DNA from: Nocardiopsaceae bacterium
Lineage (GTDB): Bacteria > Actinomycetota > Actinomycetes > Streptosporangiales > Streptosporangiaceae
Length of the DNA: 33,001 bases
Reading direction: 5' to 3'
NCBI GenBank assembly: GCA_017354375.1
Contig: JAFMRC010000018.1
Span: 1 to 33,001 of the forward strand
A program made the translations under genes and the position numbers. Of this stretch, positions 1 through 32,064 are shown piece after piece (within the stretch, counting starts at the first letter, position 1; each line of letters opens with the position of its first letter). Below the pieces are notes generated by a model. That model did no database searches. It had not been told where the DNA came from and saw nothing but the letters and a program-made list of their open reading frames with translations.

Positions 1-3000
1 CCAGCCCGATCAGGTACCGAGCCAGCCGGTTCGCCCGCTCATCCAGCTCCCCGTAGGACAGCTCCCCGCCCGCCCACGCCAGCGCCGCCCCGCCCGGCGT
101 CCGCGCCACCTGCGCCTCGAACAAGCCCGCCAGCGTCAGCGGCGGAGTCGTCTGCGGCGCCAGTCCGGCGGCGGCGCCGCTCCACTGCCCGGTCAGCATC
201 TCGCGCTCCCCGGGCAGGTAGACATCCAGGTCGCCGACCCGCTGGCCCTGATCGACGATCACGGTCTCAAGCACGCGCAGCAGCCGTGCCGCGATCGCCT
301 CCGCCGTCGCCTCGTCGAAGAGGTCCAGGGCGAACCGCAGCCGCCCGGCGATCCCGCCCGGAAAGCCGCCGGCCGCCCGCGTCTCGGCCAGGCCGAATTC
401 CAGGTCGAGCATCGCCGTTCCCACCCGGACCGGCTCGGCCGCGCACACCAGCTCCGGAGACTCCAGCGCCAGGCCAGTCTCCTCGTCGACCGCCACCATC
501 ACCTGGAACAGCGGGTTACGGGCAGGCGACCGGGCGGGGTTCACCGCCTCCACCACCCGCTCGAACGGCACGTCCTGATGCGCGAGCGCGTCCAGCACGA
601 CCTGGCGGACGCGGCCCAGCAGCCTGGCGAACGGCGGGTTCCCCGACACGTCGGCCCGCAGCACCAGCGTGTTCACGAAGAAGCCGACCAGATCCCTCAG
701 CGCGTCATCGGCCCGTCCCGCCGCCGGAGCCCCCAGCGGGATATCGTCCCCCGCGCCGAGCCGGGACAGCAGCGCCGCCACCGCCGCCTGCACCACCATG
801 AACACCGTCGCCCCATGACGGCGGGCCACCTCCGCGAGCCCGGCGTGTACTTCTGCCGGGACGGTAAAGTCCACCGTCCCGCCCCGGTAGGAGGCGACCG
901 CCGGACGCGGCCGGTCAAACGGCAGCGCCAGTTCCTCCGGCACCCCGGCCAGCGCCTTGGCCCAGTACTCGAGCTGCCCGGCCGCCAGGCTGGACGGATC
1001 GTCCTCGTCCCCCAGCAGCTCCCGCTGCCACAGCGCGTAGTCCGCGTACTGCACCGGCAGCGGCGCCCAGTCCGGCGCCCGGCCCTCAAGCCGCGCCGCG
1101 TACGCCCGGTTCAGATCCCTCCCCAGCGGACCCATCGACCAGCCGTCGGAGGCGATGTGATGCATCACCAGCAGTAGCACATGCTCGTCCGGGCCGACCG
1201 CTCTATCCGGAACCACTGTTTTATCCGGAACCACGGGGAACAGCCACGCCCGCACCGGAAGGTCCGCGGTCAGGTCAAACGGGGCCCGCGCCGCCTCCGC
1301 CAGGGCCACAGGCAGCTTCTCCTCGCTCATCCTCTCTGTCACTAGCAACGGCACCAGCACAGGCCCCTCGGCTGTCCCGTCCAGGATCCGCTGCCACGGC
1401 ACATCAACATCAGCACCAGTGTCCGCTGTCGTCTCGGGGAACACCGTTCGCAACGACTCATGACGGCCGATCACGTCCGCCAGCGCCCGCTCAAGCGCAC
1501 CGGCATCCAGCGGACCCGACAGCCGTACCGCCACCGGGATGTTGTACGCCGCCTCCTGGCCTCCCAGCCGGTTCAAAAACCACAGTCGCCACTGCGCGAA
1601 CGACAACGGCACCCGCTCAGGCCGCGGACGCGCCGCCAGCACGGGCCGCACACGCCCGTCTCCCCGCCTGACCAGCACGTCCGCCAGCTGGGCAGGGGTC
1701 GGCGCCTCGAATACCGATGCGATTTCCAGCTTCGCCCCCATCACAGCCCGCACCCGGCTGATCAGCCGGATGCCCAGCAGCGAGTCACCGCCCAGGTCAA
1801 AGAAGCTGTCGTTTACCCCGATCCGCCCGATCCCCAGCACATCGGCGAACAACTGCGCCAGGATTTCCTCCTGCGGCGTCCGAGGGGCCACGTACTGCCC
1901 GGCGGCACCTGCCTGGTAGTCCGGGGCGGGCAGCGCGGCCCTGTCCAGCTTGCCGTTCACCGTCACCGGCAGTTCGTCCAGCACCGCTACCGCCGACGGC
2001 ACCATGTAGTCCGGCAGTTTCCCGGCCGCCCACTCCCGAACCCGCTCGCCCGTCACCTGCTCTCCATCGGCAGGGACCACATATCCCACCAGCCGCTTAT
2101 CGCCCGGGCGGTCCTCGCGCAGCAGCACCGCCGCCCGCCCCACCCCAGGGGCCCCGCCCAGCACCGCCTCCACCTCGCCCAGCTCGATCCGGAACCCGCG
2201 CAGCTTCACCTGATCATCGGCCCGGCCGGCGAACTCCAGCTGCCCGTCACCCCTCCACCGGGCCAGGTCACCGGTCCGGTACATCCGCTCGCCCGGACCC
2301 TCGCCGGGAAACGGGCAGGCCACGAACCGCTCCCCGGTCAGACCCGCGCGCCCCAGGTACCCCCGCGCCAGACCCGGCCCGGCCAGGTACAGTTCCCCCG
2401 TCACCCCCGGCGGCACCGGGCGCAGCCGCTCATCCAGCACATACGCACGTGCCCCCGCGACCGGCTGCCCGATCGGCGGGACGCCCTCGCCCCCTGGCCT
2501 GTCCGAGGACAATGGCCCGGTCATCGTCGCGCACACCGTCGCCTCGGTCGGCCCGTACCCGTTGACCATCACCCGCCCCGGCGCCCACGTCTCCACCAGC
2601 CCCGCCGGGCACACCTCACCCCCCAGCATCAGCCGCCGCACCCCCGCCAGCGACCCCGCCGGAATCCCCGCCAGCACCGCGGGCTGAATAAACGCATCCG
2701 TCACCCCCAGCCCCGCCAGCTCCTCCGCCAGCTCCGCCCCCGCCAGCTTCCCCGCCGACGGCACCGCCAGGCACGCCCCCGTACCCCACGCCATCACCAG
2801 CTCATGCACTGACGCGTCAAAACTCAGCGACGCCACCTGCGACACCCGGTGCCCCGGACCCACACCCGCCCCCACAACGGCAGCCAGCCCCGCCAGCCCC
2901 GCATGAGAAACCACCACCCCCTTCGGCACCCCCGTCGACCCTGACGTATAGATGACGTACGCGGGATGTGCCGTCCGCAGCGGAGCCGTCCGGTCCGCAT

Positions 3001-3448
3001 CGGTGATCTCCTGGCCCGGGCATCCCGCCACCGCCGCCGCCGTGGCCGGATCATCCACCACCACCAACGGCAGGCCAGCCATCCCCGCAAGCCCGTCCCC
3101 GCTCGGCCCGGCCGCACCCGCCGCGTCCGTCACCGCCAGCACCGGCCCGGCGTCGGCCAGCATGAACGCGATCCGCTCCGCCGGAAGCCCCGGATCCACC
3201 GGCAGGTACGCCGCCCCCGACTTCGCCGCCGCAAGTAGCGCCACGCACGCCGTCACGCCCCGGGGCAGCACCAGCGCCACCACCCGCTCCGGACCCGCCC
3301 CCAGCCCGATCAGGTACCGCGCCAGCCGGTTCGCCCGCTCATCCAGCTCCGCATAGGACAGCTCCCCGCCCGCCCACGCCAGCGCCGCCCCGCCCGGCGT
3401 CCGCGCCACCTGAGCCTCAAACAACCCCGCCAGCGTCAACACCGACAT
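1..3448 (-). CDS. Non-ribosomal peptide synthetase, N-terminal part (A-PCP-C-A...), partial
   Basis: The frame is open from an ATG at 3448 to the left edge (about 1149 residues visible). It encodes a modular peptide synthetase that activates amino acids as adenylates, loads them on carrier domains and condenses them. Domains in order: adenylation about 1-505 (A3 [11 protein letters not shown] near 165; [46 protein letters not shown] near 499); carrier about 530-600 ([12 protein letters not shown], Ser carries phosphopantetheine); condensation about 610-1040 (HHIASDGW near 762; [11 protein letters not shown] near 919); then a second adenylation domain that leaves the window. It begins directly with A, so this looks like a loading module. 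Aligning to GrsA by eye gives a pocket code near DAHFMGGVCK, which matches no specificity I know. GGAG lies 4 nt before the start. No MbtH-like or tailoring gene is visible here; the product is unknown. Confidence 0.95.
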
Positions 3449-3618
3449 ACTCTCCTGCCTATCCCGCTAGCCTGGGCGTCAGCTTGCTCTCACCAGGAGT
3501 AACAGCAGTCCCGATAACAGCGACACTCTACTATGATCCGCTTCTAACCATCAGATTCACCGCTAAAGGGAACCTCCCCGTTAGCCGCTCCGACGTACAT
3601 TTATTGATATATGTCGAT
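3449..3618. other. Intergenic leader upstream of the NRPS
   Basis: These 170 bp separate the phosphotransferase-like gene from the NRPS start. The stretch is markedly AT-richer than its surroundings, with TA-rich runs near 3520-3540 and 3595-3620, so it probably holds the NRPS promoter on the minus strand. I could not settle on a -35/-10 pair. No ORF of note is seen. Confidence 0.4.
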
Positions 3619-4440
3619 CTACAAGACGCCCCGATGCTGCGCCCACCTGCGGGCGGCGCGCGCGATCGTCGTTATCCATACGGCGGCGGTGTTCTCGCGG
3701 TTGTGCTGTTCGTCGATCTCGGTCCACATGCTGACGTTGGCGTGGGCGAAGACATCGACGTGTGCAGGGTCGGCGGTGGCGTAGGCGGGCAGGCGCCTGG
3801 CGAGGGCTTCGGCCTGCTCGGCCGTGTGCCCATGGGCCATGAGCCGGAGGAGCCAGCAGGCGGGGTCGATCCAGGCGGCGCCTAGGGTGGCCCAGGCCCA
3901 GTCGACCAGCCAGGCCCGGCCGCCGGAGATGAGGACGTTGTCCGGCATCCAGTCGGTGTGGATCAGCGACGGCCCGGCGAGCACCTCGGCGTCGCGAGGG
4001 TCATCGACGTAGGACTTCCAGCGGTCCTCGGCGTACTTCACCGGCTCGTGGCCGTTGGGGACCTCGACGGCGGCCAAGGTGGCCATGAGGTTGATGATCA
4101 GCTCAAGGTCGGGCGAGCCTGGGCGGTAGTCGGCGGCCCGACCCTCGAGATGGGCAAAGCCGAGGACGTTCCAGCCAGCCTCGTCGAACTGCCACAGCAG
4201 TTCAGGAGAGATCCCTTTGACCATGGGTGCCGCGGCGGCCTCCCTGAGCTGGGTCTTGGCCTGCCGGTGCCCGGAGGGCAATCCTTTGACGAAGACCTTC
4301 GCGGTCTCCGTGTCGATGACTGCGGCCAGCGGGCTGTTCATCCCGTCGGCCACCGCGTGCCCGGTGGTGATCGGCCCGGTCCGGACGCTGATCGCGTTCT
4401 TGAGGGAGCCGGGCAGGTCGTCCCACTGGATGCGTTCCAC
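3619..4440 (-). CDS. Aminoglycoside phosphotransferase-fold (APH/choline-kinase-like) protein
   Basis: This 273-residue protein has the APH kinase-like fold, whose members move the ATP gamma-phosphate to antibiotics or small metabolites. Visible features are a lysine-bearing strand (VFVKGL, about K52), the catalytic loop LIHTDWMPDN (H161, D163, N168) and the metal-binding LVDWAW (D180, in place of the usual DFE/DWE). An alpha-helical C-terminus follows. The start is GTG 4440 with GAGGA just upstream, 6 nt after the stop of the small upstream gene, so the two are probably cotranscribed. The substrate cannot be read from sequence. It could be self-resistance for the neighbouring NRPS product, but such genes are common and often unrelated to nearby clusters. 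Confidence 0.85.
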   Translation of the reverse strand: MERIQWDDLPGSLKNAISVRTGPITTGHAVADGMNSPLAAVIDTETAKVFVKGLPSGHRQAKTQLREAAAAPMVKGISPELLWQFDEAGWNVLGFAHLEGRAADYRPGSPDLELIINLMATLAAVEVPNGHEPVKYAEDRWKSYVDDPRDAEVLAGPSLIHTDWMPDNVLISGGRAWLVDWAWATLGAAWIDPACWLLRLMAHGHTAEQAEALARRLPAYATADPAHVDVFAHANVSMWTEIDEQHNRENTAAVWITTIARAARRWAQHRGVL

Positions 4441-5074: not shown

Positions 5075-5473
5075 CTACCCGTCCGCGTGTTCTTGCTCGA
5101 TGTGCTCGAAGATGTCGGCGTCGGTCTGCTGCTGCCAGCCGGGAAGCTGGTCCCAGTCAGCAACGTAGCCGGGCTTGGGGTCGGGGATGTGCTTGTGGAT
5201 CTGGGCTATCCAGCAGGTCGCGACGAAGCGTCCCTTCTGCTCGCGGGTCAGTTTTGCGGTGGTGCCGCCGCTGACCTCGATGAACTGGCGGACCTGCTCG
5301 CAGACGGCTGCGGCGGCCTGGCGCTCCCATTCTGGGATCTCCTCCCACGGCGCGATGTACCCGGGCTTGGGCTCTCCGGGGAAGTACTTGCGCACTCCGG
5401 TGATCCAGGCGTCGCGGAAGGTCCGGCCGTGTTCTTCGGCGGCGGTCTGCAATCTGGGTCCTTTCGGCGTCAT
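5075..5473 (-). CDS. Small protein with internal domain duplication, coupled to the XRE-TPR regulator
   Basis: This is a 132-residue protein that I do not recognise as a named family. It contains two related halves. Residues about 25-65 (RKYFPGEPKPGYIAPWEEIPEWER) and about 93-130 (HKHIPDPKPGYVADWDQLPGWQQQ) share the pattern K-x-x-P-x(1-2)-PKPGY-[IV]-A-x-W-[ED]-[EQ]-[IL]-P-x-W. Each half then continues into a helix (AAAAVCEQVRQFIE; TDADIFEHIEQE). It is cytosolic, with no signal peptide or membrane segment. The ATG at 5473 overlaps the regulator stop as ATGA, so the two are translationally coupled and probably work together, for example with this protein as a ligand or antagonist of the regulator. 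That role is inferred from context only. Confidence 0.75.
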   Translation of the reverse strand: MTPKGPRLQTAAEEHGRTFRDAWITGVRKYFPGEPKPGYIAPWEEIPEWERQAAAAVCEQVRQFIEVSGGTTAKLTREQKGRFVATCWIAQIHKHIPDPKPGYVADWDQLPGWQQQTDADIFEHIEQEHADG

Positions 5474-6765
5474 GTGGCTGCGGTAAGACGGCTGATGCGG
5501 TCGTTCAGCTCGCCCAACCTGGAGTCGGCGAGCAGCGGCTGGATCTGCTCCTGAAGGCCGGTGAGCTTGCGGCCGAGGTAGCCGGCGGAGCGCGTCTGCT
5601 CGGCGATGCCGATCGCGTCGTCGGCATAGTGCAGGATCTGGCTGGTGTCTTTGTGCTGGACGCCGATCATCGCCAGGTCGGCCAGGATGCTGCCGCGGCG
5701 GCGCGGCGAGACGGTTCCGGCCAGCGCGCTGTTCAGCTCGCTCTCGGCGAGGCCGGCCCGGCCGAGGGCCAGGTAACAGGTGCCGCGTTCCTCGCCGAGC
5801 CGGGTGCCGTCGAACCGGAGCCAGCCGCCAGGGCGCGCGGGGCCGGCGAGATCGAGAACGCTGTCGGCGGTATCGAGATTCCGCTGGCAGCCGCTGGCAT
5901 CCCCGATGTCGGCGAGTGCCTGCGCCTGGACCGCGGCGACCCACTGCCGCGTGGGCAACTGGCTATCGCCGTTGCGGGCGACCCGGCTGGCCGCCTCCAG
6001 GACGTCGGCGGCCTGGTCGTACTGCTTGTCGTAGATGTGCACGAAGGACTGGCGGGTTAGCGCGCATGCCCACCGGTCCCAGGATCGGGCCTCGCGACCG
6101 GCGGAGGCGGCAAGCGCGTAGCAGTGGGCAGCGTCGCCGTACTCGTCGGCGTCGAAGAAGATCTCGCCGGCGAGCTGGAACAGGTCGCAGGCCAGGACGC
6201 ACAGCTGCCGGTGGACGGTGCCGGGCGGGCTGCTCTTCATCTCCGTGACCAGGGCGCCGAGCTGGTCGCGGACAAGGGGATACACCTGGCGCTTGGACGT
6301 GGCGAGCGCGAACACCTGCCACAGGTGCTCGTTGAGCTGGGCGTGCGGGCCGAGGCCAGCAACCGTGCGGGTCCGCCCAGGAGGAGGGAGTTCTCCGGAT
6401 GCTGCCGCGGGCACGGAGACAAGGACACCGGCGATGCTCAGCAGGCGGAGTAGCTCGCGGCGGTGCATATCGTCAGTCGTCTCCAATGACTCGGTGCGGG
6501 AAAGCTCCTGCCCGCACGCACCCGGTCCCGGGCGGGCGGACGGCACGTGCCCCTGGGGCGCAGGATTGAGCAGGGCGTCCAGTTCGCCTGGCGGGATCTT
6601 GAGAACCTGGCAGAGCTTGCGCCGGAGATAGGGGAACGGGTCAGTTTCCCCGCGTTCCCACCGGCCGACCGTGGTGCGGTCGACGCCGAGCTGCTCGGCG
6701 AGGAACTCCTGGGTGTAGCCCAGGGCCTTGCGACGCCCGGCGAGGCGCGGCCGTCTGACTGCCAC
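5470..6765 (-). CDS. XRE-family HTH regulator with TPR-like C-terminus
   Basis: This 431-residue protein starts at GTG 6765 (GGGAGGTG 6 nt upstream). Residues about 7-62 form a Cro/C1-type HTH (RRKALGYTQEFLAEQLGVDRT, VGRWERGET). A linker carries the RRELLRLLSIAGV segment seen in the large Streptomyces-type XRE-TPR family. From about 130 to the end the protein is alpha-helical with TPR-like pairs (CYALAASAGREA, AADVLEAAS, ALADIGDASGC, CYLALGRAGLAESELNSAL). Such proteins bind DNA as dimers and sense peptides or proteins through the TPR part. It diverges from the lasso precursor across a 182-bp intergenic region with a palindrome (6815-6829), so it most likely controls the lasso operon. That control is inferred from position. 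Confidence 0.88.
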   Translation of the reverse strand: MAVRRPRLAGRRKALGYTQEFLAEQLGVDRTTVGRWERGETDPFPYLRRKLCQVLKIPPGELDALLNPAPQGHVPSARPGPGACGQELSRTESLETTDDMHRRELLRLLSIAGVLVSVPAAASGELPPPGRTRTVAGLGPHAQLNEHLWQVFALATSKRQVYPLVRDQLGALVTEMKSSPPGTVHRQLCVLACDLFQLAGEIFFDADEYGDAAHCYALAASAGREARSWDRWACALTRQSFVHIYDKQYDQAADVLEAASRVARNGDSQLPTRQWVAAVQAQALADIGDASGCQRNLDTADSVLDLAGPARPGGWLRFDGTRLGEERGTCYLALGRAGLAESELNSALAGTVSPRRRGSILADLAMIGVQHKDTSQILHYADDAIGIAEQTRSAGYLGRKLTGLQEQIQPLLADSRLGELNDRISRLTAAT

Positions 6766-6947: not shown

Positions 6948-7085
6948 ATGGACACGCCCACCCCCATCCCCGCCAGCCGCGCCCGTTACGTCGCCCCCGG
7001 CCTCGTCGATCTCGGTCCCGCTACCGAGGTGACGCTTGGCAAGTACGCCGAGGACACCCAGGACGAGGGCCGGTACTTCGAGTAG
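6948..7085 (+). CDS. Lasso peptide precursor with predicted aspartimide motif
   Basis: This 45-residue ORF has AGAAAGG 7 nt before the ATG. The leader carries the full lasso recognition pattern YxxPxLx3Gx5T: Y14, P17, L19, G23 and T29, with T29 at position -2. Cleavage after L30 gives the 15-residue core GKYAEDTQDEGRYFE. Gly1 can form the macrolactam with Asp9, the only acidic residue at positions 7-9, giving a 9-residue ring and a short EGRYFE tail in which R12, Y13 or F14 could act as plugs. Asp6-Thr7 lies inside the ring. Characterised lasso peptides modified by PIMT-like enzymes (cellulonodin-2, lihuanodin) carry an aspartimide at an Asp-Thr pair, as far as I recall. Cyclase, RRE, peptidase and methyltransferase genes follow. 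The ring size and the modification are predictions. Confidence 0.9.
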   Translation: MDTPTPIPASRARYVAPGLVDLGPATEVTLGKYAEDTQDEGRYFE

Positions 7086-7109
7086 CGGCAACCAGGCCGA
7101 TATGGCCTG

Positions 7110-7148
7110 TGCGCGGGCGGTCGGCGTCACGCCGCTGCCGTCCGCGCA
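7110..7148 (+). promoter_or_regulatory. Strong hairpin between lasso precursor and cyclase genes
   Basis: An imperfect inverted repeat pairs TGCGCGG-x-CGG...CGGCG with CGCCG...CCG-x-CCGCGCA around a TCA loop. It lies 25 nt after the precursor stop and before the cyclase ribosome-binding site. No T-run follows, so it is not a standard intrinsic terminator. It may stabilise the precursor mRNA or attenuate read-through, raising the ratio of substrate to enzymes. Confidence 0.55.
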
Positions 7149-7170
7149 CGCGCCGGGAGGTGAATGACAG

Positions 7171-8985
7171 ATGTGGATTGGCGGGATCGCGGGCACCCAG
7201 CACACGCCCGCAGTGCACAAGCCGCTGTGGGGAGCCCCGCGGCCCGCGTGGACCGTGGGAGATTCCGGCGAGGCCGGGCTGCACGTGGCGTTCTCGGCCG
7301 GCTCGCGATGCCGGCTCGCGATAGCCGGGGACTGCTACGCCACCGCCGCGGACCTGGAAACCGGCCTGGACGCGGTCGACCGGCACGACTGGCGGGCGCT
7401 GACCAGCTGGCCCGGCTCCTACTGGGCAGCATGCGACGACGGGCAGGAGACCACCGTCCTCACCGACGTGGCTGGCTCCAAGCCGGTCTACTACACCCGG
7501 CACCATGGCGGGACCGCCTGGGCGACACAGGCCGGGCCGCTCGCCGACCTGACCGGTGTCGGCCCCGACTACGGGGCGCTGGCCGCGTGGATGACCTGCC
7601 CCGCAGTGCCCGAGGCATACCCGGGCGGGACCACGTATACGGGCGTCCGCCGGCTTCCCGGCGGGCACGCCCTCCGCATCGGCAGGGACGGTGTTCCCCG
7701 CGTCACCCGCTACGAGCCGGAGGACGAGCACCAGCCGTTCGACGACGCTGCCGTGGCGCTCCGCGAGGCACTGATGACCGCCGTCAGCATGCGTGCTTCC
7801 CGGGCAGGGCGGCTGAGCAGCGACTTCTCGGGAGGCCTGGACTCCACGACCCTCGCGATCCTCGCGGTCAGGGCCGGATTCCCGGTCCTCGCGCTCACCC
7901 ACTGCGATCCGGCCATCGTGAACGACGACCTTGAGTACGCCAAGCGCCTGGCGGCTGGCGAGGACGAGAACCTCCTCACCCACGTTGCCGCTGGCAGCGG
8001 CCGCTTGTTCTTCGATGACCTGGACTCAGCCCCGCGAACGGACCAGCCCCTCGCCGACACCGCCCGGTGGGCGGTGCACGCCGGCTTCCGCCAGCCCGTC
8101 ACCGAGCACGGCTCCGATATCCACATGACCGGAAGCGGCGGCGACACCCATCTGGCCGCCGGCCCGCAGGCCCTCGCCTGCCTCGCCGCTGCCCTGCCGG
8201 GCAAGTCGGCGGAGTTCATGCGTCACTGCTCGGCCCGGGCCCGGCTCCGGCAGCTCCCTGTCCACTCCGTGGTCAGGTCGGCGCTGGCGCTGTCCCGGAC
8301 CTCCTACGAGCAGGCTCTCGGCCGGGTCGCCGACGCGATCCGGAATCCGGCGGCCCAGCCGGCCGGGCGCGCGGCGATGAACTGGGCTGGGCACGGAAGG
8401 ATGGCCGTATGGCTGACCGTCGATGCCCGCAGGCAGCTCGCCGGGACGATCACCGCGGCAAGCGTCCCGGACGGCGATCCTGCGCAACCCGCCCTGCGGG
8501 CTGCCTGGAATGAGCTCCGCGAGTTCGGCACCTACCAGGCCGAGCTGGACCTGGTGGCACGAGGCGGCGGCGTGCCTGCCCACGCCGTGCTGCTCGACAA
8601 CAACGTGGTCCGCGCCGCCATGTCCATCCCGGTCGTGCAACGGCTGTCCAACGACGTGCAGAAGCCGCTCCTGAACGCGGCCTTCAGCGGCACGCTGCCC
8701 GCGCTCCTGCTCCGCCGCCCGACAAAGGGCGGCTACGACGGCAGCGGCTACGCCGGGATAGCGGCGAACGCGGAGCGGCTCACGGAGATGGCCCGCCAGT
8801 CTCCGCTGGCCGGCGCCGGGCTCATCGACCCCGGCCCGGTCCGGGAAGAGATCGCCCGGATGGCCGCCGGGGCACCTGGCCGCATGGCCATGCTCGAAGC
8901 CTTCGTCGCCGCTGACCGGTGGGCTGCCGCCCAGGACAGCCGTCACCGGGTCCGCTGGACCGAAGGAGCCCCGGATCGTGCCTGA
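7171..8985 (+). CDS. Lasso peptide cyclase (asparagine synthetase-like, C protein)
   Basis: This 604-residue protein is an asparagine-synthetase homologue that adenylates the ring-forming acidic side chain and closes the isopeptide bond with Gly1. Residues about 1-190 are a degenerate N-terminal glutaminase-like domain (no Cys2; GSYWAACDD, TDVAGSKPVYY, VRRLPGGHAL). Residues about 195-604 form the ATP-pyrophosphatase domain, with the PP-loop DFSGGLDSTTLA near 218-226 and a second conserved GSGGDTH near 320. The start is ATG 7171, about 10 nt after GGGAGG; an overlapping ATG at 7164 is in another frame. The stop overlaps the GTG of the RRE gene by 8 nt. Length and position fit the lasso C protein. 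Confidence 0.93.
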   Translation: MWIGGIAGTQHTPAVHKPLWGAPRPAWTVGDSGEAGLHVAFSAGSRCRLAIAGDCYATAADLETGLDAVDRHDWRALTSWPGSYWAACDDGQETTVLTDVAGSKPVYYTRHHGGTAWATQAGPLADLTGVGPDYGALAAWMTCPAVPEAYPGGTTYTGVRRLPGGHALRIGRDGVPRVTRYEPEDEHQPFDDAAVALREALMTAVSMRASRAGRLSSDFSGGLDSTTLAILAVRAGFPVLALTHCDPAIVNDDLEYAKRLAAGEDENLLTHVAAGSGRLFFDDLDSAPRTDQPLADTARWAVHAGFRQPVTEHGSDIHMTGSGGDTHLAAGPQALACLAAALPGKSAEFMRHCSARARLRQLPVHSVVRSALALSRTSYEQALGRVADAIRNPAAQPAGRAAMNWAGHGRMAVWLTVDARRQLAGTITAASVPDGDPAQPALRAAWNELREFGTYQAELDLVARGGGVPAHAVLLDNNVVRAAMSIPVVQRLSNDVQKPLLNAAFSGTLPALLLRRPTKGGYDGSGYAGIAANAERLTEMARQSPLAGAGLIDPGPVREEIARMAAGAPGRMAMLEAFVAADRWAAAQDSRHRVRWTEGAPDRA

Positions 8986-9298
8986 CATCGAGAACGACGA
9001 CGAGCGCCTCCTGCCGAGTCGGCACGTACGGGCCATCATCACCTCGCAGGGCGGCGCGATCCTCGACCTGCGGCCCCGCCGGGGCCGCTGGTACACGCTT
9101 ACCTCCACGGCCTGCTTCTGGTGGCAGTGCATCCAGGACGGCCGCACCACAGGCGAGGCCAGCCGGGCGGTAGCCGGCAAGTACGAGATACCGGCACAGC
9201 AGGCCGCTGCCGACCTTGCCCCCTTCCAGGCGGAGATGCTCCGCAAGCGGCTGCTCATGCCGGCCAGCCGCCGCAGGACAGCGAGGCAGCGGCATTGA
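8978..9298 (+). CDS. Lasso RRE protein (B1, PqqD-like leader-binding)
   Basis: This 106-residue protein has the size and pattern of the RiPP recognition element that binds the precursor leader (the YxxPxL part) and presents it to the peptidase and cyclase. The beta strands VRAIITSQGGAILDLRPRRGRWYTL are followed by the helical part STACFWWQCIQDGRT...AADLAPFQAEMLRKRLL typical of PqqD-like folds. The GTG start at 8978 overlaps the cyclase stop and has GAAGGAG upstream. The peptidase gene follows with a TTGA overlap. The B1 and B2 functions are therefore on separate genes, as is usual in actinobacteria. Confidence 0.88.
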   Translation: MPDIENDDERLLPSRHVRAIITSQGGAILDLRPRRGRWYTLTSTACFWWQCIQDGRTTGEASRAVAGKYEIPAQQAAADLAPFQAEMLRKRLLMPASRRRTARQRH

Positions 9299-9714
9299 GC
9301 ATCGACATGACTGGCTCGGCAGGCCAGCCCGGAACTTCAAGGCCCCCGGTGGCAGCCGAGTTCGCCGCGCTGGTACTGGCACTGCTGATGCTCCGGTGCC
9401 TTCCGCTCCGCGTCACCATCACGATCGCCGGCGTCATCGGCCGTCTCGGAACCCGCCCCGCGGCCGCGGCCGAGGCACTCGACGCGGTCTCCGCCGTCAA
9501 GCAGGCCGCCGCCTGGTGGCCGGGCCGCGCCGCGTGCCTGGAAACCCCGCTGGCCGCGTATATCGCCCTCGCGCTGCGCCGCCGCCGGGCAGACTGGTGC
9601 ATCGGATGCCGCCTTAGCCCGGTCGAGCCCCACGCCTGGATCGAAACGGCCGCCGGGCCGGCCGGCGAGCCAGACCAGGCTGGCAGGCGGCTGCACGCTG
9701 CCGTCCGCACCTGA
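9295..9714 (+). CDS. Lasso leader peptidase (B2, transglutaminase-like cysteine protease)
   Basis: This 139-residue protein cuts the leader after the Thr at -2 has been recognised. The catalytic region is visible: AACLETPLAAYIALALRRR carries the nucleophilic Cys and PHAWIE the His, matching the C...HAW pattern of lasso B2 proteins. Residues 15-45 are hydrophobic (ALVLALLMLRCLPL), as in many B2 proteins. I chose the TTG at 9295 because it overlaps the RRE stop (TTGA), implying coupling; an ATG at 9307 (135 residues) is possible but has no clear ribosome-binding site. The substrate is the 45-residue precursor at 6948. Confidence 0.87.
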   Translation: MSIDMTGSAGQPGTSRPPVAAEFAALVLALLMLRCLPLRVTITIAGVIGRLGTRPAAAAEALDAVSAVKQAAAWWPGRAACLETPLAAYIALALRRRRADWCIGCRLSPVEPHAWIETAAGPAGEPDQAGRRLHAAVRT

Positions 9715-9742
9715 CCCGGAACGCAGACACCCGAGGAGAGCC

Positions 9743-10834
9743 GTGCCCGACGCCACCGTCACTGCTGGAGAGGACCATGTTGCCCGCGCCGCCCGCGCCG
9801 TGCCGCGCGATCACTACATCGGCCATCCCCGCCTCGGGGCGGTCCCGCAGGCCACCGCCCAGGGAGCTATCGAGCGGGACCTCCGCCGCGCGAACGTCCG
9901 GCCCGGCCACAAGATCCTCGAAATCGGCACCGGCACCGGGCTCACCGGCGCCCTGCTCGCCGAGCTGACCGGCCCGTCCGGGCACGTCGTGTCCGTGGAC
10001 ATCGACCCCGGCCTGATCCGCCGGGCCCACGCGCTGCACGCCGAACGGCACGTCCGGAACATCACGCTGGTCACCGGCGACGGGAACAAGGGCGCGCCCG
10101 GCCACGGCCCCTTCGACGTGATCATCGCCTGGGCCACCCCCACCGTGATCCCCCGGGCGTGGCTGGACCAGGCCGGGCCGGGAGCGCGGATCTGCGCCCC
10201 GGTCTACTACGCCCAGACCACCAGGGCCAGCGCGCACGTGCGCGCCACCGTCACCGCCAGCGGCGGGCTTGATGCGATCACGCTCGGCCCGGCCTCCTAT
10301 GTCGACATGGGAGGAGAGGTCAACACCAACTTCACGGTCCCGATGTTCTACATCGACGCCGTCCGCAGCTCCGGCGGTCGGCCCTCGTGGATCAGCGTCG
10401 CCTGGCGGGGCCGGCACCCCGGCCACGACCCCCAGCGCGCACTGGAAATGCTCGCCGAGCCGGGCCACCGGGAGCCGCGGCCCCTCGCACCTGACACGGC
10501 CGGGCACCGCCAGGCGTGGCGGGACTTCCGCGCCTACTGCGCGGCCCTCGACCACGGCAGCAACCTCACCAGCCACGGCACCCCGGACGGCGGCAACGCC
10601 ATCGGGTTCTCCAGCGGCAATAACGCGGCCGTCCTCACCGACGTCGGCACCATCTTGGCCAGCACGGCCGCCTCGCCCGCCCTCGCCAAGCTCCGCGACC
10701 GCCTCGACGACTGGGAAAACGCCGGACGGCCCGGACTCAGCACACTCAACGCCACGGCACAGGACAAAGACGGCGACCTAGTCATCCGCCTAGCCCTGCC
10801 ACGGACCGAACACCGCAAGATCAGGCCCACCTGA
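9743..10834 (+). CDS. PIMT-like O-methyltransferase of the lasso operon, probable aspartimide-forming enzyme
   Basis: This 363-residue, SAM-dependent methyltransferase is related to protein L-isoaspartyl methyltransferase. Motif I is ILEIGTGTG (58-66), followed by VVSVDIDP (about 82-89) and VIIAWATPTVI. About 150 C-terminal residues extend beyond a normal PIMT of about 210. In aspartimidylated lasso pathways, such extended PIMT homologues methylate a ring Asp and the ester collapses to an aspartimide. The start is GTG 9743 with GAGGAG upstream, 28 nt after the peptidase, at the end of the precursor-cyclase-B1-B2 operon. The Asp6-Thr7 pair in the core supports this role. The canonical PIMT SQPxxVA loop is replaced by AVPQATAQ. 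Aspartimide formation is inferred. Confidence 0.88.
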   Translation: MPDATVTAGEDHVARAARAVPRDHYIGHPRLGAVPQATAQGAIERDLRRANVRPGHKILEIGTGTGLTGALLAELTGPSGHVVSVDIDPGLIRRAHALHAERHVRNITLVTGDGNKGAPGHGPFDVIIAWATPTVIPRAWLDQAGPGARICAPVYYAQTTRASAHVRATVTASGGLDAITLGPASYVDMGGEVNTNFTVPMFYIDAVRSSGGRPSWISVAWRGRHPGHDPQRALEMLAEPGHREPRPLAPDTAGHRQAWRDFRAYCAALDHGSNLTSHGTPDGGNAIGFSSGNNAAVLTDVGTILASTAASPALAKLRDRLDDWENAGRPGLSTLNATAQDKDGDLVIRLALPRTEHRKIRPT

Positions 10835-10900: not shown

Positions 10901-10929
10901 TTTACACACTAGATAATCGCCGGGATATT
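10901..10929 (+). promoter_or_regulatory. Predicted sigma70-type promoter downstream of the lasso operon
   Basis: TTTACA (10901-10906) and GATATT (10924-10929) are separated by exactly 17 bp in a locally AT-rich patch. Transcription would start near 10936, shortly before the ATG at 10949. It would drive the broken gene and the second methyltransferase separately from the lasso operon. Confidence 0.45.
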
Positions 10930-10948
10930 CGCGCTACTGTCGGCCGCG

Positions 10949-11327
10949 ATGAGAGTCGGCATCCAGGTCCAGGGCCAAGCCGAAGCGGTCAGCGAACTGT
11001 GCGCGACCTTCGACCGCTACCGCCAGGGCAGCATCGGATGCTCATGGTGGCCCGGGATGATCTCCCTCCGCGACTACGTGCACGGAACGGCGGGCCGAGG
11101 TCGCCAGGCGCGGCCTTCATGGTGCTACGGCACTCCCGGCCAGGTGCGTGCACAGCAGCTCGCGGCAGGCACGGCATGGAATGGAAGATCACCTCGCCCG
11201 GAGAGGCATGCCGACGGCGGCCGGGCTGCTCGAAGGAACGTCCGGAATCCAGCTCACCCGAAACGAACCCCCCGAAGCCAGCAGCGATCGGTCCCCGTGG
11301 GACGCCTGCCTGCTGCTAACCGTGTAG
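10949..11327 (+). pseudogene. Probable frameshifted small gene between the two methyltransferases
   Basis: No single frame looks convincing across this stretch, but pieces in different frames do. First is an N-terminal segment from ATG 10949 (MRVGIQVQGQAEAVSELCATF). Next is a middle segment in the +2 frame (FMVLRHSRPGACTAARGRHG, then MEWKITSPGEA). Last is a C-terminal segment in the third frame (LLEGTSGIQLTRNEPPEA, then SDRSPWDACLLLTV) ending at TAG 11325. Joined, they read as a plausible protein of about 120 residues. I therefore call it a decayed gene with at least two frameshifts; its family is unknown. A shorter intact reading from ATG 11181 (48 residues) is possible. A promoter-like element lies just upstream. 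Confidence 0.35.
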
Positions 11328-11351
11328 ATCCAGACCAGGTGAAGGAAGACG

Positions 11352-12566
11352 ATGAACGCGACGGCACCAGCTGCCAGTCCAGAGCGACTGAACGAGATCA
11401 TGATCGACGCCATCAAGGGCGGACGGCCGGTCGGCACCAGTGATCGCCGTATCCTTGGCGCGATCTGGACCGTACCACGTCACCTGTTCGTCCCGGGTGC
11501 CGCCCTCGAAGACGCGTACGATCCGGACCTCACCGTGATCACCAGGCGTGATGCCGGAGGTGCCGCGCTGTCGTGCGCCTCGGTCCCCTACCTCGTTGCG
11601 GCCATGCTCGGCCAGCTTGATATCCGGGACGGTCACCGTGTCTTCGAGGGAGGGGCCGGGACGGGGTGGAACGCGGGGCTGCTCGCCACACTGGCCGGAC
11701 CAGATGGACATGTCTCCACCATCGACATTGACCCGGGCATCTCCGCAGAGGCCAGGGACAATCTTGAGCGGGCCGGATTCGGGGACGTGCATGTCGCCAC
11801 CGGGGACGCCAGCCTCGGCGTGCCGGAGCACGCCCCGTACGACCGGGCCATCATCACGATCGGCAGCCTCGACATCCCGCCCGCGTGGATAACCCAGCTC
11901 AAGCCGGGAGGGCGGCTCGTCGTCCCGCTTCGCTGGCGCGGCCAGACCCAGTCCGTCGTGTTCATCCTTGATGACGACGGCATCCTGTACTCCGACGGCT
12001 CATTCCTGTGCGGCTTTGTCCCCATGATCGGGCAGAAATGGGAGCGCTCTGCGTCGATCGACTCCCACGACCTGGTCCGCCTGTACTGGGACGCCGACCA
12101 GGAAATCCTGCCTGACCAGCTGGCCGGCGTCCTCGACGGCCCGGCCACCCGAATCGACTCCGGCGTCACGGTCGGTCCGGAAGAATCCCTGGATCCGATC
12201 TGGGTCCGCGCCACCTCAACAGACCCGGCGGTCTGCCGTATCGCAGCCGAGCCCGCCGCCGTCACGAGCGGATTGTGCACGCCGGTCATCAGGGCACGCA
12301 CCCTCGCACTGGCCGAAGGCGACTCGATCGCCTACCTCACCGCCCAGCGCCTCGGGGAACCAGGGCGTGGCGCCCGACTCGGCGCCACCGGGCACGGATC
12401 CGACGGTGCCGGCCTCGCGGAACGCCTTTGCCGCCACATCAGCACCTGGGGCACCGACCGCACTGCCAGGCCGTCCATCACCGTCTACCCGACGGGCTCC
12501 GCGCCCCGCACTCCGGGAGTTCAGGTGATCGAGCGAGAACACTGTGAGCTGACGGTTCGGCAGTGA
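11352..12566 (+). CDS. Second PIMT-like methyltransferase (FxLD-system-like)
   Basis: This 404-residue protein is a PIMT homologue distinct from the one at 9743. The N-terminal half keeps the PIMT order: VPRHLFVPG (41-49), TRRDAGGAALSCASVP (64-79, substrate loop), VFEGGAGTGWNAGL (97-110, SAM motif I), VSTIDIDP and LKPGGRLVVPL. About 180 further residues follow. The organisation resembles the extended methyltransferases annotated with 'FxLD' RiPP systems, which are thought to act on Asp in ribosomal peptides. Motif I has Gly where Ile/Val is usual (FEGGAG rather than LEIGAG), which could affect SAM binding. The start is ATG 11352 with AAGGAAG close upstream. Its substrate could be the lasso core, the lost neighbouring gene product or damaged protein; this is unresolved. 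Confidence 0.85.
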   Translation: MNATAPAASPERLNEIMIDAIKGGRPVGTSDRRILGAIWTVPRHLFVPGAALEDAYDPDLTVITRRDAGGAALSCASVPYLVAAMLGQLDIRDGHRVFEGGAGTGWNAGLLATLAGPDGHVSTIDIDPGISAEARDNLERAGFGDVHVATGDASLGVPEHAPYDRAIITIGSLDIPPAWITQLKPGGRLVVPLRWRGQTQSVVFILDDDGILYSDGSFLCGFVPMIGQKWERSASIDSHDLVRLYWDADQEILPDQLAGVLDGPATRIDSGVTVGPEESLDPIWVRATSTDPAVCRIAAEPAAVTSGLCTPVIRARTLALAEGDSIAYLTAQRLGEPGRGARLGATGHGSDGAGLAERLCRHISTWGTDRTARPSITVYPTGSAPRTPGVQVIEREHCELTVRQ

Positions 12567-22361: not shown

Positions 22362-23131
22362 GAGAGGATTCCCAATTCGTCGAGGACGCGGACGAGTTCC
22401 GGGACAGCGGCCACGCCCTCGCCCAGCACCGTGGCCTGGTGCGTGCCGCCCTCCGGCACCCGCAGCCTGGTCTTCCGCAACCCCTCGGGCAGCGACACGT
22501 CCTTGATCTCGACACGCTCGACCGGCGCGCGCTTGGCCCGCAGCCGGCCGGGCAGCGACGGGTACCGGGGCAGGTTGAGGCCCTCCTTCACGGTCACCAC
22601 CGCGGGCAGCGGCAGCGAGTAGGCCTCCTCGACGCCCCGGTACTCCCGCCGCGCGACCACGCCGTCGGCCGAGACGTCCAGCGACTTGATCCCGGTGACG
22701 ACCGGCCAGCCGAGCAGGTGGGCGACCCGGATGCCGACCTGGTAATCGCCGGTGTCGGAGGCCTCGTTGCCGAACAGCGCCAGGTCGTAGCCCGGCTCGG
22801 CGGCGGCGCGGGAGCCGATCTCCGAGGCGATCGCCGTAGCGGTGGCGATCGGACCGTACTCGCGCCCGTCGGTTTCCAGCAGCACCGCCCGCCCGGCGCC
22901 GAGGGCGAGCGCGCCGCGCAACTGCTCGATCGCGGACTCCGGGCCGAGCGTCAGCACCGACACGGTGCCGCCGAGCCGCTCGGTGATCCGCACCGCCTCC
23001 TCCACCGCGCACTCCTCGTGCGGGCTGATGGTGAACCCGGACATCCGGGTATCGACGCCGAGCCCGTCGCCGGTCAGCGTGATCCGGCCGCCGACGGTGG
23101 GCACCCGCTTGACGCAGACCAGGATCTCCAT
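22358..23131 (-). CDS. etfB: Electron transfer flavoprotein beta subunit
   Basis: This 257-residue ETF beta subunit opens with MEILVCVKRVP. It carries MSGFTISPHEECAVEEAVRI and TVSVLTLGPESAIEQLRGAL, and DLALFGNEASDTGDYQVGIRV in the AMP/recognition region. LPAVVTVKEGLNLPRYPSLP is the conserved ETF-beta signature that contacts partner dehydrogenases. The ATG overlaps the preceding stop (TGATG) and its own stop overlaps etfA (ATGA), so the flavoprotein, EtfB and EtfA are translationally linked. It acts in the cytosol as a heterodimer with EtfA, carrying electrons from dimethylglycine or sarcosine oxidation. Confidence 0.95.
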   Translation of the reverse strand: MEILVCVKRVPTVGGRITLTGDGLGVDTRMSGFTISPHEECAVEEAVRITERLGGTVSVLTLGPESAIEQLRGALALGAGRAVLLETDGREYGPIATATAIASEIGSRAAAEPGYDLALFGNEASDTGDYQVGIRVAHLLGWPVVTGIKSLDVSADGVVARREYRGVEEAYSLPLPAVVTVKEGLNLPRYPSLPGRLRAKRAPVERVEIKDVSLPEGLRKTRLRVPEGGTHQATVLGEGVAAVPELVRVLDELGILS

Positions 23132-25641
23132 CAGGCCCGCACCCGCTCGTTCGAGGGATCGAACAGCGGCCGGGATCCGGCGACCGCGACCGTTACCGGG
23201 TACCGTTCTCCCAGGTACTCGACGAGCAGCGGAGTTCCCTCCACCGCCAGGCCGGCGGGCAGGTAGGCCATCAGCAGGTGCTTGCCGAGCGACGGCCCCG
23301 ACCCGGCGCTGGTCACGTACGACGGCCGGCCCTTCGCGTCCGTGATCCGCTCCCCGTCGGTGGTCAGGATCGGCTCGCCGCCGAGCATGTACCGCGCGGT
23401 CCCGTCCGCGGACCGGTGCGAGTCCACAGTCAGCGTGCACAGCAGCGCGCACGGGGCGGCGTCGCGCTGCGCCAGGTACGCCTCCTTGCCGACGAACGGC
23501 TGGGGCTTCACCCGGGGCCTGGTCATCCCGGCCTCGACCAGGGTGTAGTCGGGCGTCAGCTCGGCCCCGTAGGAGCGGTAGCCCTTCTCCATCCGCCCGG
23601 TGGTCGCGTACACGCCGATGCCGGCCGGCACCAGCCCACGGGTCTTCCCGGCCGCCCGCACCGCGTCCCACACCCGCGCGCCCTGCTCCATCGGCGCGTA
23701 CAGCTCCCAGCCCAGCTCGCCCACGTAGGAGATCCGCGAGGCGAGCACCACGATGCCGCCGATCTCAACAACCCCGATTTTCCCGAACGGGTAGTGGTGA
23801 CTGCTCATTTCCTCGCCGCTGGCCGCGGCGAGGATGACCCTGGCGTTCGGCCCCCACACCCCGATCGTCGTCTGCGCCGAGGTGAGGTCGGCCAGGGTGG
23901 CGTCCGCGGGCAGGTGATCGGCGATCCACTTCTTGTCGGACATCCCGGTGGCGGCCCCGGTGACGAACCGGAACCGGTCTTCGGCCAGCCGCATCACGGT
24001 CAGGTCGGCGCGGATCCCCCCGTCCGGGTCGAGCATCGACGTGTACACCACCCGGCCGACCGGAACGTCGATTTGCGCGACGCACAGCGACTGCGCCCCG
24101 GCGAGCGCGCCGGGGCCGGACACGTCGAGCACCACGAACGACGACAGGTCGAAGATCCCGGCGGCCTCGCGCATCGCCAGGTGCTCGGCGTTGATGATCG
24201 GGGACCACCAGCGGGAGTCCCACTCGGCGGGCCGCTCCATCAGCCGCCCCGCGTACTTCTCCAGCAGCGGTGCGTTCGAGGAGTACCAGTGCGGCCGTTC
24301 CCACCGGGCGGCCTCGAAGAACACCGCGCCTAGTTCCTCCTCCGCGGCGTGCATCGGGCTGACCCGGGCCGGGCGGTCGCGCTCCCACTGCTCGGCCGGG
24401 TGCACGATGCCGTACATCTTGTTGAACCCCTCGGCGGCCCGCGAGCGGGCGTGCGACCTGGTCTCCTGCACCGGGTGGAAGCGCGCGGCGTTCGCCTCGT
24501 GCACGTCGGTGGTGGGCACCCGGCCCGACATCAGCTCCGCGACCGCGCGGCCGCAGCCGGGTCCCTCCTTGATCCAGCTGGCCGCCGCCGCCCACAGCCC
24601 CCTTACCCCGGGCAGCTCGCCCAGCAGCGGGTGCCCGTCCGGCGTCATCGAGATCAGCCCGTTGATCGCGTAGTGGATGCCCGCCTTCTCGTCGCCGAGC
24701 AGCTCCGGCATCAGCTCAAGGGCCTGGGCGAGCTGCGGGTCGAAGTCCTCGGAGGTGAACGGCATCTCGGTCGGCGACAGCGCCGCCTCGGCGATGGACG
24801 GGATCTCGTCGGGGGCGATGAGGATCGGCCGGTGGGCGTAGGAGCCGACCTCCATGTCGCCGCCGTGCTGGCGCTCGTACATGCCGGCGTCCATGTCGCG
24901 GACGATCGGGTAGCCGATCTCACCGGGGGTGCCCGCGAACAACGAGATCGGGCCCACGCTGATCATCTGGTGCACGATCGGGCTGAGCGCGAGCCTGGCG
25001 CCCGCCATCGCGGCGACCCGGGGCGACCACACCCCGCAGCAGATCGCGACGTTGCCGGTCTCGATCTCGCCCTCGGTGGTGCGCACCGCGCGCACCCGGC
25101 CGCCGGCCACCTCGATGCCGGTGACCTCGGCCCCGGGCAGCAGGGACAGCGCGCCGGCCTGGCGGGCCCGCTCGCGCATCAGCGTCCCGGCCCGCAGCGA
25201 GTCGACGACGCCGACCGTGGGGAAGTACGCGCCGCCGAGTATCACCTCCTCGTCGAGGTAGGGAACCAGCTTGCGCACCCGGTCCGGCGTGATTAGCTCC
25301 GCCGGTATGCCCCACGCCCTGGCCTGGGTGCAGCGCCGCCGCAGCTCGGTCATCCGCTCCGGGACGCGGGCGATCTCGATGCCGCCGGATTCGGTGAAGG
25401 TGCCGAGTTCCTTGTACTGCTCGACGGAGTCCCTGGTCAGCTCGAACATCATCTTCGAGTACTCCACCGGGAAGATGAAGTTCGAGGCGTGGCCGGTGGA
25501 GCCGCCCGGGTTGGGCAGCGGGCCCTTGTCGACCAGCACCAGGTCCTTCCAGCCGAGCAGGGCTAGGTGGTGGACGAGGCTGTTGCCCACGATGCCGGCG
25601 CCGATGACCACGGCGCTGGCCCGCTCCGGGACGTCTGTCAT
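23131..25641 (-). CDS. Dimethylglycine/sarcosine dehydrogenase-like flavoprotein (DAO-GcvT fusion)
   Basis: This 836-residue protein has two halves. Residues about 1-400 are a DAO-type FAD oxidoreductase: VVIGAGIVGNSLVHHLALLG (11-30), GGSTGHASNFIF (H51, placed like the covalent-FAD His of this family), VAICCGVWSPRVAAMAG, and GHPLLGELPGVRGLW with the final FAD contacts. Residues about 420-836 are a GcvT-like tetrahydrofolate-binding domain: GIFDLSSFVVLDVSGPGAL, YTSMLDPDGGIRADLTV, RISYVGELGWELYAP and the C-terminal barrel. The family oxidatively demethylates dimethylglycine or sarcosine and passes the one-carbon unit to THF, with ETF as acceptor. The start ATG 25641 (GGAGAAGG upstream) overlaps the DUF1638 stop. 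The exact substrate is inferred from the operon. Confidence 0.9.
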   Translation of the reverse strand: MTDVPERASAVVIGAGIVGNSLVHHLALLGWKDLVLVDKGPLPNPGGSTGHASNFIFPVEYSKMMFELTRDSVEQYKELGTFTESGGIEIARVPERMTELRRRCTQARAWGIPAELITPDRVRKLVPYLDEEVILGGAYFPTVGVVDSLRAGTLMRERARQAGALSLLPGAEVTGIEVAGGRVRAVRTTEGEIETGNVAICCGVWSPRVAAMAGARLALSPIVHQMISVGPISLFAGTPGEIGYPIVRDMDAGMYERQHGGDMEVGSYAHRPILIAPDEIPSIAEAALSPTEMPFTSEDFDPQLAQALELMPELLGDEKAGIHYAINGLISMTPDGHPLLGELPGVRGLWAAAASWIKEGPGCGRAVAELMSGRVPTTDVHEANAARFHPVQETRSHARSRAAEGFNKMYGIVHPAEQWERDRPARVSPMHAAEEELGAVFFEAARWERPHWYSSNAPLLEKYAGRLMERPAEWDSRWWSPIINAEHLAMREAAGIFDLSSFVVLDVSGPGALAGAQSLCVAQIDVPVGRVVYTSMLDPDGGIRADLTVMRLAEDRFRFVTGAATGMSDKKWIADHLPADATLADLTSAQTTIGVWGPNARVILAAASGEEMSSHHYPFGKIGVVEIGGIVVLASRISYVGELGWELYAPMEQGARVWDAVRAAGKTRGLVPAGIGVYATTGRMEKGYRSYGAELTPDYTLVEAGMTRPRVKPQPFVGKEAYLAQRDAAPCALLCTLTVDSHRSADGTARYMLGGEPILTTDGERITDAKGRPSYVTSAGSGPSLGKHLLMAYLPAGLAVEGTPLLVEYLGERYPVTVAVAGSRPLFDPSNERVRA

Positions 25642-26249
25642 GGCCTTCTCCCATCTTCCGTTTCTGCCAGCAGGGTGGCCAGTTCCCGTTCCAGCCGGCG
25701 GGTGCCGGTATCGACGCGAGTCAGCGGGAGGCGGAACAGCGCCGCGATCCGTTCCGCCGCCGCGGCCAGCTCCGGGGTGGGGTCCTGGGCGAGCCACACC
25801 AGCCGCCGGTAGTGGCCGAAGTAGTCGGGCCACAGCTCCGGGTGGGCGTCGAGCCCGAGCTCGGCCAGCACCGTGCGTTTGAACGACCGGACCAGGAAGT
25901 CGGTCAGCAGGTACGTGCCGGGGTCGGCGGCGAACAGTTCGGCCACCTGGGAGGATCCGGCGTACACGTCGTAGCAGTGCAGTCCGGGCAGGCGGCGCAC
26001 GCCGTGCCTGGCGCACACCGCGTCCAACCCGCCGTAGCTGCCGCAGTCCGCGTAGGCCAGGATGACGGAGCGCCCGGCGGCGTGGGCAGTCACCACGATC
26101 CGTTCGGCATAATCGGCGATTTTTTCCGGCCGGTTGTGCAGGAGGGCGGGCAGCGGCCGCACCACGACCGGCCAGCCGCGGCGGGTGGCGATCTGGCGGA
26201 TGTCCGCGGCCAGGGCGCCGCAGCAGACCACGTCAGCCTCCCGGGCCAT
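25638..26249 (-). CDS. DUF1638 protein
   Basis: This 203-residue protein has the DUF1638 pattern: VVCCGALAADIRQIATRRGW, then PLPALLHNRPEKI, SVILAYADCGSYGGLDAVC, LPGLHCYDVYAGS and DPGTYLLTDFLVRSF. DUF1638 genes recur beside corrinoid-dependent methyltransferases, where a role in cofactor or metal handling has been proposed but is not established. Two Cys-Gly/Asp motifs (CCGA, DCGS) and the His-Cys near HCYDVY could bind metal. I chose ATG 26249, which overlaps the end of the activator gene by 17 nt; starts further upstream would read through that gene. Its stop overlaps the flavoprotein start (ATGA). Confidence 0.82.
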   Translation of the reverse strand: MAREADVVCCGALAADIRQIATRRGWPVVVRPLPALLHNRPEKIADYAERIVVTAHAAGRSVILAYADCGSYGGLDAVCARHGVRRLPGLHCYDVYAGSSQVAELFAADPGTYLLTDFLVRSFKRTVLAELGLDAHPELWPDYFGHYRRLVWLAQDPTPELAAAAERIAALFRLPLTRVDTGTRRLERELATLLAETEDGRRP

Positions 26250-28113: not shown

Positions 28114-29045
28114 GGGGACGCCGCCTGCTGTTCCCGGGCTTGCCGGGCGCGGTGGGCCGCGATCCAGGCGGCGCCCCATTCATCATGGTTCAGCACCAGG
28201 TCGGCGGCCTTGACCGCGCGGACGAGGTCCGGCGACCGGGCGTCCATGATCGCGCTGGTCAGCCCGTGCGACATCGCGGCGGGCAGGAACGCGGCCCCGA
28301 TCGCGGGCCGGCCCGGCATCCCGAACGACACGTTCGACGCCCCCAGCGTCATGTTCACCCCGAGTTCCTGCCTGATCGCGGCGATCGTGTCCAGGGTCCG
28401 CCGCGGGTGCCCGGTGTCCGCCCCGACCGGCATGGCCAGCGGATCGATGAGGATGTCGCACGCGTCGATGTGGTACCTCTCCGTCGCGACGTGGATGATC
28501 TTGCGGGCCAGCTCGACCCGGCGGGCCGGATCGTCGGGGATCTCGTCCTCGTCGTTCGGCAGCCCGATGACGGCGGCGCCATGCCGCTTGACCAGCGGCA
28601 AGATGACCTCCAGCCGGTCGTCCTCCGCGGTCACCGAGTTGACGAGCGCCTTGCCCTGGTAGGCGGCCAGGCCGGCGTCGAGCACCTCGGGAATCGAGGA
28701 GTCGAGCACGAGCGGCAGGTCGGTGAGGCCCTGGATGAGCCTGACCGCGCGGGTCATCAGGGCGGCCTCGTCGGCGAGCGGCGCGCCCATGTTCACGTCG
28801 AGCAGCATGGCGCCGCCCGCGACCTGGTCGGCCACATCGGCCTCGATGGAGGACAGGTCGCCGTCGCGGAGCCGGCGCTGGAAGGCCTTCCTGCCGGTCG
28901 GATTGATTCGCTCGCCGATGATCGCGAACGGCCGGCCGGGGCCGATCGTGACGGTGCTCCCGGGGCTCCCGGTGTTCCCGGGGCTCCCGGGGCTCCCGGC
29001 GGCGGGTTCGGCCGGGTCCGCCGCGGAGGTCAGTACCGTGTCCAT
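28110..29045 (-). CDS. Corrinoid:tetrahydrofolate methyltransferase (MtgA/AcsE-like pterin-binding protein)
   Basis: This 311-residue DHPS-like TIM barrel moves the methyl group from methyl-corrinoid to tetrahydrofolate. Visible motifs are FAIIGERINPTGRKAF (about 40-55), MLLDVNMGAP, LPLVLDSSIPEVLDAGL, KALVNSVTAEDDRLEVILPL, CDILIDPLAMPVG and VNMTLGASNVSFGMP, all typical of the MtgA/MtvA/AcsE group. The first 33 residues are a Gly/Ser/Pro-rich low-complexity leader encoded by short DNA repeats. Its ATG directly follows the corrinoid-protein stop with no gap. The operon suggests it works with the MttB-family enzyme in glycine betaine demethylation. Confidence 0.9.
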   Translation of the reverse strand: MDTVLTSAADPAEPAAGSPGSPGNTGSPGSTVTIGPGRPFAIIGERINPTGRKAFQRRLRDGDLSSIEADVADQVAGGAMLLDVNMGAPLADEAALMTRAVRLIQGLTDLPLVLDSSIPEVLDAGLAAYQGKALVNSVTAEDDRLEVILPLVKRHGAAVIGLPNDEDEIPDDPARRVELARKIIHVATERYHIDACDILIDPLAMPVGADTGHPRRTLDTIAAIRQELGVNMTLGASNVSFGMPGRPAIGAAFLPAAMSHGLTSAIMDARSPDLVRAVKAADLVLNHDEWGAAWIAAHRARQAREQQAASP

Positions 29046-30505: not shown

Positions 30506-30520
30506 CGCCTGGTCCCCATT

Positions 30521-30544
30521 GTTCCGCTTTATGGAACTAAGTTC
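30521..30544. promoter_or_regulatory. Candidate IclR operator in the divergent betaine promoter region
   Basis: GTTCC (30521-30525) pairs with GGAAC (30533-30537). GAACT (30534-30538) pairs with AGTTC (30540-30544) around a single A. The overlapping palindromes lie in an AT-rich patch next to a TATTAT (30545-30550) that could be the -10 of the MttB-family gene. Palindromes of the GGAA/TTCC type are typical for IclR proteins. Confidence 0.5.
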
Positions 30545-32056: not shown

Positions 32057-32064
32057 GGCAGCCG

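Follow-up and report, generated by a model that had tools for sequence, protein, structure and literature searches.

A lasso peptide operon with a PIMT-like methyltransferase and a predicted aspartimide-bearing product in a Nocardiopsaceae bacterium

Described systems and gene content of the locus

According to a 2026 review (PMC13001092), no more than two aspartimide lasso peptides (lassimiditides) had been characterised. Cellulonodin-2 from Thermobifida cellulosilytica carries its aspartimide at Asp6 and closes its ring at Asp9, and its methyltransferase TceM acts on the threaded lasso only (PMC13001092, PMC9266682). Lihuanodin from Lihuaxuella thermophila has a core of 15 amino acids with a 6-residue tail, an Asp6-Thr7 pair and a ring closed at Asp9, and its methyltransferase LihM is a PIMT homologue with WxxxGxP (PMC13001092), the motif reported for lassimiditide methyltransferases. 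Group 1 lassimiditides are defined by D(T/S)AD at core positions 6-9, while group 2 members have the modified Asp in the loop. A function of aspartimide lasso peptides was not found stated in the literature searched.

We analysed a stretch of 33,001 nucleotides (the window) from a Nocardiopsaceae bacterium, whose genome is a 5.6-Mb draft in 580 contigs and 87% complete. It contains a locus that resembles lihuanodin in core and tail length, Asp6-Thr7 pair, ring-closing Asp9 and type of methyltransferase, and for which the ring and aspartimide positions of cellulonodin-2 are predicted. The locus also differs from both systems. Its core has Gln8 and hence a DTQD motif, whereas lihuanodin has Ala8 and cellulonodin-2 has DTAD; LihM is only 31% identical to the methyltransferase encoded here; and the lihuanodin methyltransferase gene lies upstream of the precursor, whereas here it ends the operon. 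The features are:

6948..7085, plus strand: lasso precursor A, 45 aa (NF033521; leader motif; homologous precursors in the same gene order)
7038..7082, plus strand: predicted core peptide (by invariant G1, D6 and D9, see below; chemistry from PMC13001092, PMC9266682)
7171..8985, plus strand: lasso cyclase, asparagine-synthetase-like, 604 aa (NF033561, PF00733, SGGLDS)
8978..9298, plus strand: RRE / PqqD-like leader-binding protein B1, 106 aa (PF05402)
9295..9714, plus strand: B2 leader peptidase, transglutaminase-like (NF033537, PF13471; Cys and His signatures)
9743..10834, plus strand: PIMT-like O-methyltransferase (MT), 363 aa (PF01135, WENAGRP, AlphaFold model, MT tree)
5470..6765, minus strand: divergent HTH-TPR regulator of the NsdA family (NF053720, 154.3 bits, cut-off 75)

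The initial annotation had placed five genes at 6948-10834, with cyclase, RRE, peptidase and MT following each other with overlaps or short gaps, and both statements held. All five reading frames are intact and lie on one strand, and the junctions A/C/B1/B2/MT measure 85, -8, -4 and 28 bp. The start of B2 may be TTG at 9295 or ATG at 9307. Every protein scored above its curated profile cut-off: the precursor with 19.3 bits (NF033521, cut-off 19), the cyclase with 324.6 (albusnodin/ikarugamycin family NF033561, cut-off 300), the RRE with 40.5 (PF05402 PqqD, cut-off 23.4), B2 with 65.6 (NF033537, cut-off 33) and also above the PF13471 cut-off, and the MT with 86 (PF01135 PCMT, cut-off 20.3). The catalytic signature SGGLDS lies at cyclase residue 220, and B2 keeps its Cys and His catalytic signatures. 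Although the cyclase belongs to the same family as that of albusnodin, which carries a Lys acetylation (PMC13352647), the operon has a PIMT-like MT instead and no acetyltransferase was seen in it.

The precursor consists of the leader MDTPTPIPASRARYVAPGLVDLGPATEVTL and the core GKYAEDTQDEGRYFE, with T29 (position -2), G31 and D39 as key residues. As proposed earlier, it matches the strict leader motif YxxPxLx3Gx5T, and this is the single match in a six-frame search of the window. Other genomes encode homologous precursors whose cores are almost identical, such as GRYAEDSMDQERYFE and GKYAEDSQDNNRYFE, with the gene order conserved, and the precursor call is therefore not a chance match. With Thr at -2 of the leader, Gly1, an Asp within core positions 7-9, a cyclase, an RRE and B2 all present, the locus is, as judged from its sequence, a complete lasso peptide operon. 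The divergent NsdA-family gene is a possible regulator of the operon; HTH or TPR genes adjoin the precursor in several relatives too.

Two further gene groups were noted elsewhere in the window. Positions 23131-32988 hold a corrinoid one-carbon cluster that is likely involved in quaternary amine demethylation. It comprises an MttB-family methyltransferase (below the pyrrolysine-type cut-off), a B12-binding protein, a pterin-binding methyltransferase, a RACo-like activator, a GcvT/DAO fusion and a glycine-betaine-binding protein. At the open end, positions 2-3448 on the minus strand read as a non-ribosomal peptide synthetase with adenylation, carrier and condensation-like stretches.

The core peptide and the D(T/S)xD loci

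The core starts with the ring segment GKYAEDTQD, containing Gly1, the Asp6-Thr7 pair and Asp9, and ends with the tail E10-E15. The residues named in the initial annotation are thus in place, in the same layout as in cellulonodin-2 and lihuanodin. Gly1 and Asp9 are predicted, by analogy with these peptides, to form a 9-residue macrolactam ring, with Asp6-Thr7 as the predicted aspartimide site. Asp9 is the sole acceptor for a ring of 7-9 residues, since Thr7 and Gln8 cannot close it.

How common such cores are was addressed with a lassimiditide-MT profile. It gave at least 36 long matches (E about 1e-75 or better) in at least 34 of 299 genomes of the family, probably Streptosporangiaceae as GTDB defines it, counts that are lower bounds because few candidates per genome were scored; the next matches followed only at 5e-53. 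In a phylum-wide sample of 396 genomes the window alone reached the level of about 1e-75 among the matches listed. A scan of genome contigs also recovered Lihuaxuella thermophila, the lihuanodin producer, with the core GSKYSDTADESSYRW.

From loci having both an MT and a precursor we compiled 24 cores, including that of the lihuanodin locus. G1, D6 and D9 are invariant in all 24, a count that is partly conditioned because D[TS]xD was used to find three loci (L101, L102 and L108); most precursors came from a leader pattern or from annotation, with no requirement for D6. Position 7 is T in 17 cores, S in six and H in one. In lasso cores of MT-less clusters from related genomes, D6-[T/S]7-x-D9 was found in none of nine. 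The locus L042, with a DTSD core, was at one point taken as a D6-T7 lasso without an MT and was rejected as such, as a PIMT-like gene lies just past its B2 on the same contig. We also noted two lasso cores (L042:3441-3503 and L043:2575-2802) whose tails contain DSDAG(K/Q)YY and which have a PIMT-like gene in their vicinity. The short core and 6-residue tail had been taken as signs of a new product. This view could not be upheld: 22 of the 24 cores have 15-16 residues, that of lihuanodin (15) included, and a short tail is hence normal.

The order precursor-cyclase-RRE-B2-MT is also present on large Streptomyces plasmids (L170, L172, L173 and L174), and in a further plasmid relative (L171) the MT is split off. 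The cores of these five loci include GTNNFDHADDTEYKNA, which has His in place of Thr7.

Residue 8 sets the core apart from the published D(T/S)AD motif. Because it has DTQD and lacks Ala8, we filed it as group-1-like and not as strict group 1; group 2 membership was ruled out, as no Asp follows position 9 in loop or tail. Eight loci including the window lack Ala8 and have K, Q, E or M instead (the others are L039, L120, L122, L123, L125, L126 and L129). Their cores are GKYAEDTQDEGRYFE, GRYAEDSMDQERYFE, GKYAEDSQDNNRYFE, GKFAEDTKDQNRYFE, GKFAEDSKDQNRYFE and GKFAEDTKDQNRYFD, together with two longer-tailed ones (L120 and L122), and Glu5 and Arg12-Tyr13-Phe14 are common to all eight. In quick trees with a single support measure, the MTs of these loci form one clade together with decayed relatives and two further loci (SH-aLRT 92), with the window MT inside a subclade of support 100. 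The cyclases of six of the eight loci (the window and five others) likewise form a clade with support 100, and those of L120 and L122 branch apart. These loci may represent a separate lassimiditide subgroup whose MT and cyclase have acquired another substrate specificity and for which Ala8 is dispensable, a proposal to which we give slightly less than an even chance.

The methyltransferase, its relatives and a second PIMT

The MT keeps the LEIGTGTG signature and carries WENAGRP at residue 324 in its C-terminal domain, which corresponds to WxxxGxP. This motif alone is no proof of a lasso function, as it also occurs in MTs without an adjoining lasso cyclase. An AlphaFold model of the MT (METHYLTRANSFERASE; pLDDT 92.1, pTM 0.90) was compared with PIMT structures. 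The catalytic domain matched PIMT 2yxe (Z 24.6, 186 residues, 3.0 A), and residues 6-355 matched the two-domain Thermotoga PIMT (TmPIMT) 1dl5, an enzyme whose C-terminal domain is also present in RiPP-associated PIMT homologues (PMC10787088). In this second comparison (Z 23.6, 282 residues) the rmsd was 8.2 A, and the domain orientation is therefore probably unlike that in 1dl5. The modelled protein has a predicted PIMT fold with a C-terminal extension or domain, as expected of a lassimiditide MT. When PDB sequences were searched with the MT profile, only PIMTs and other SAM-dependent methyltransferases were returned, and none of these entries bore the name of a RiPP MT. In the MT tree, the protein falls among lassimiditide MTs and is separated from FxLD-type and other PIMT-like proteins. 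Its identity to the MTs of DTAD loci is only 28-40%, which, like Gln8 in place of Ala8 in the core, counts against a lassimiditide assignment.

The closest relatives of this MT sit in decayed or solo contexts. In Kribbella catacumbae (L045, 3226-4825, plus strand) a frameshifted MT is accompanied by a B2 remnant, and neither a cyclase nor a precursor was found. L116 has an intact MT (2942-4360, minus strand) that is 57% identical to the window MT and lies beside a B2 tail, in a genome without a cyclase match. Two solo MTs belong to the same clade (L130:5433-6491 and L131:2897-3949). Such contexts suggest that MTs of this branch may persist without a lasso operon and, as far as these sequences tell, seem able to outlive it. 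One could hence argue for an ordinary lasso peptide that stays unmodified and for an MT that serves another substrate, for example in protein repair, as close relatives survive in genomes with a decayed lasso operon or none (L116, L130, L131). We regard this as quite improbable. The MT gene begins only 28 bp downstream of B2, its product carries the motif of lasso MTs, and MT and D6 core are found together in 24 loci; even the solo MT of L116 still adjoins a B2 remnant, indicating that it derives from a lasso operon.

Downstream of the MT, a second PIMT gene is preceded by a gene remnant:

10916-11318, plus strand: decayed LanC fragment split over two frames, which are 57% and 54% identical to the LanC encoded on contig C356 of this genome
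11352-12566, plus strand: intact FxLD-type PIMT (TIGR04364, 342.8 bits, cut-off 320)

This PIMT lies 517 bp downstream of the MT on the same strand, and a second PIMT-like gene near the lasso MT is also present in L110, L114 and L122, so that a further modification of the lasso peptide by this enzyme had to be weighed. Such a role is very improbable. The DNA from 11174 to 12511 shares 77% identity with the LanC-MT end of an intact LanB-LanC-MT cluster (contig C356, L168), the gene is preceded by the broken LanC fragment, its product groups with FxLD-type MTs and not with lasso MTs, and the core offers no further Asp to modify. We rejected it as a part of the lasso pathway and regard it as the remainder of an FxLD lanthipeptide cluster. 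The window holds no recognisable lanB homologue. A neighbouring FxLD precursor was rejected as well: the sole F-x-L-D match in a small ORF runs antisense within the MT gene.

Predicted pathway and product

By analogy with the characterised systems, we consider a lassimiditide, a lasso peptide bearing an aspartimide, to be the likely product of the operon. The proposal that the Asp-Thr pair is converted into an aspartimide has gained support: ring Asp9 and Asp6-Thr7 are placed as in the two characterised pathways (PMC13001092, PMC9266682), all 24 cores have D6, and the MT groups with lassimiditide MTs. Modelled on the cellulonodin-2 and lihuanodin systems (PMC13001092, PMC9266682), the RRE protein would bind the leader and B2 would cleave between Leu30 and Gly31. 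The cyclase would activate Asp9 and couple it to the amino terminus at Gly1, closing the ring around the threaded tail, with an expected [M+H]+ of 1789.766. Once the lasso has folded, the MT would methylate its Asp6, and attack by the Thr7 amide nitrogen would expel methanol and leave an aspartimide in the ring (expected [M+H]+ 1771.756, the lasso minus a second water). Any hydrolysis would be steered by Thr7 to Asp, so that the ring size would be kept.

The MT could also act on Asp6 with no lasting aspartimide. Hydrolysis would then yield isoaspartate or plain Asp, or else the methyl ester would be stable and form the end product. Indeed, isoaspartate is largely the end state in other RiPP classes with PIMT homologues (PMC13001092), and Gln8 and the acidic ring are unlike the two characterised peptides. 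The core does, however, contain Thr7, which in lihuanodin directs hydrolysis to Asp, and the lihuanodin aspartimide is water-stable. We hold such an outcome to be unlikely and favour a lasting aspartimide as the end product.

Aspartimide lasso clusters are a known kind, and the present one is an additional predicted member of a little-described subgroup. Published lists comprise 48-67 clusters; the present one is new as a sequence as far as searched. If the D(T/S)xD loci are indeed a separate subgroup, an aspartimide would be placed in an acidic, short-tailed and uncharacterised lasso, possibly with a different aspartimide stability. The combination of Gln8 with a 15-residue core would allow a clean test of the role of Ala8 in methylation or aspartimide stability, and the cluster would likewise test how the MT recognises a threaded substrate.
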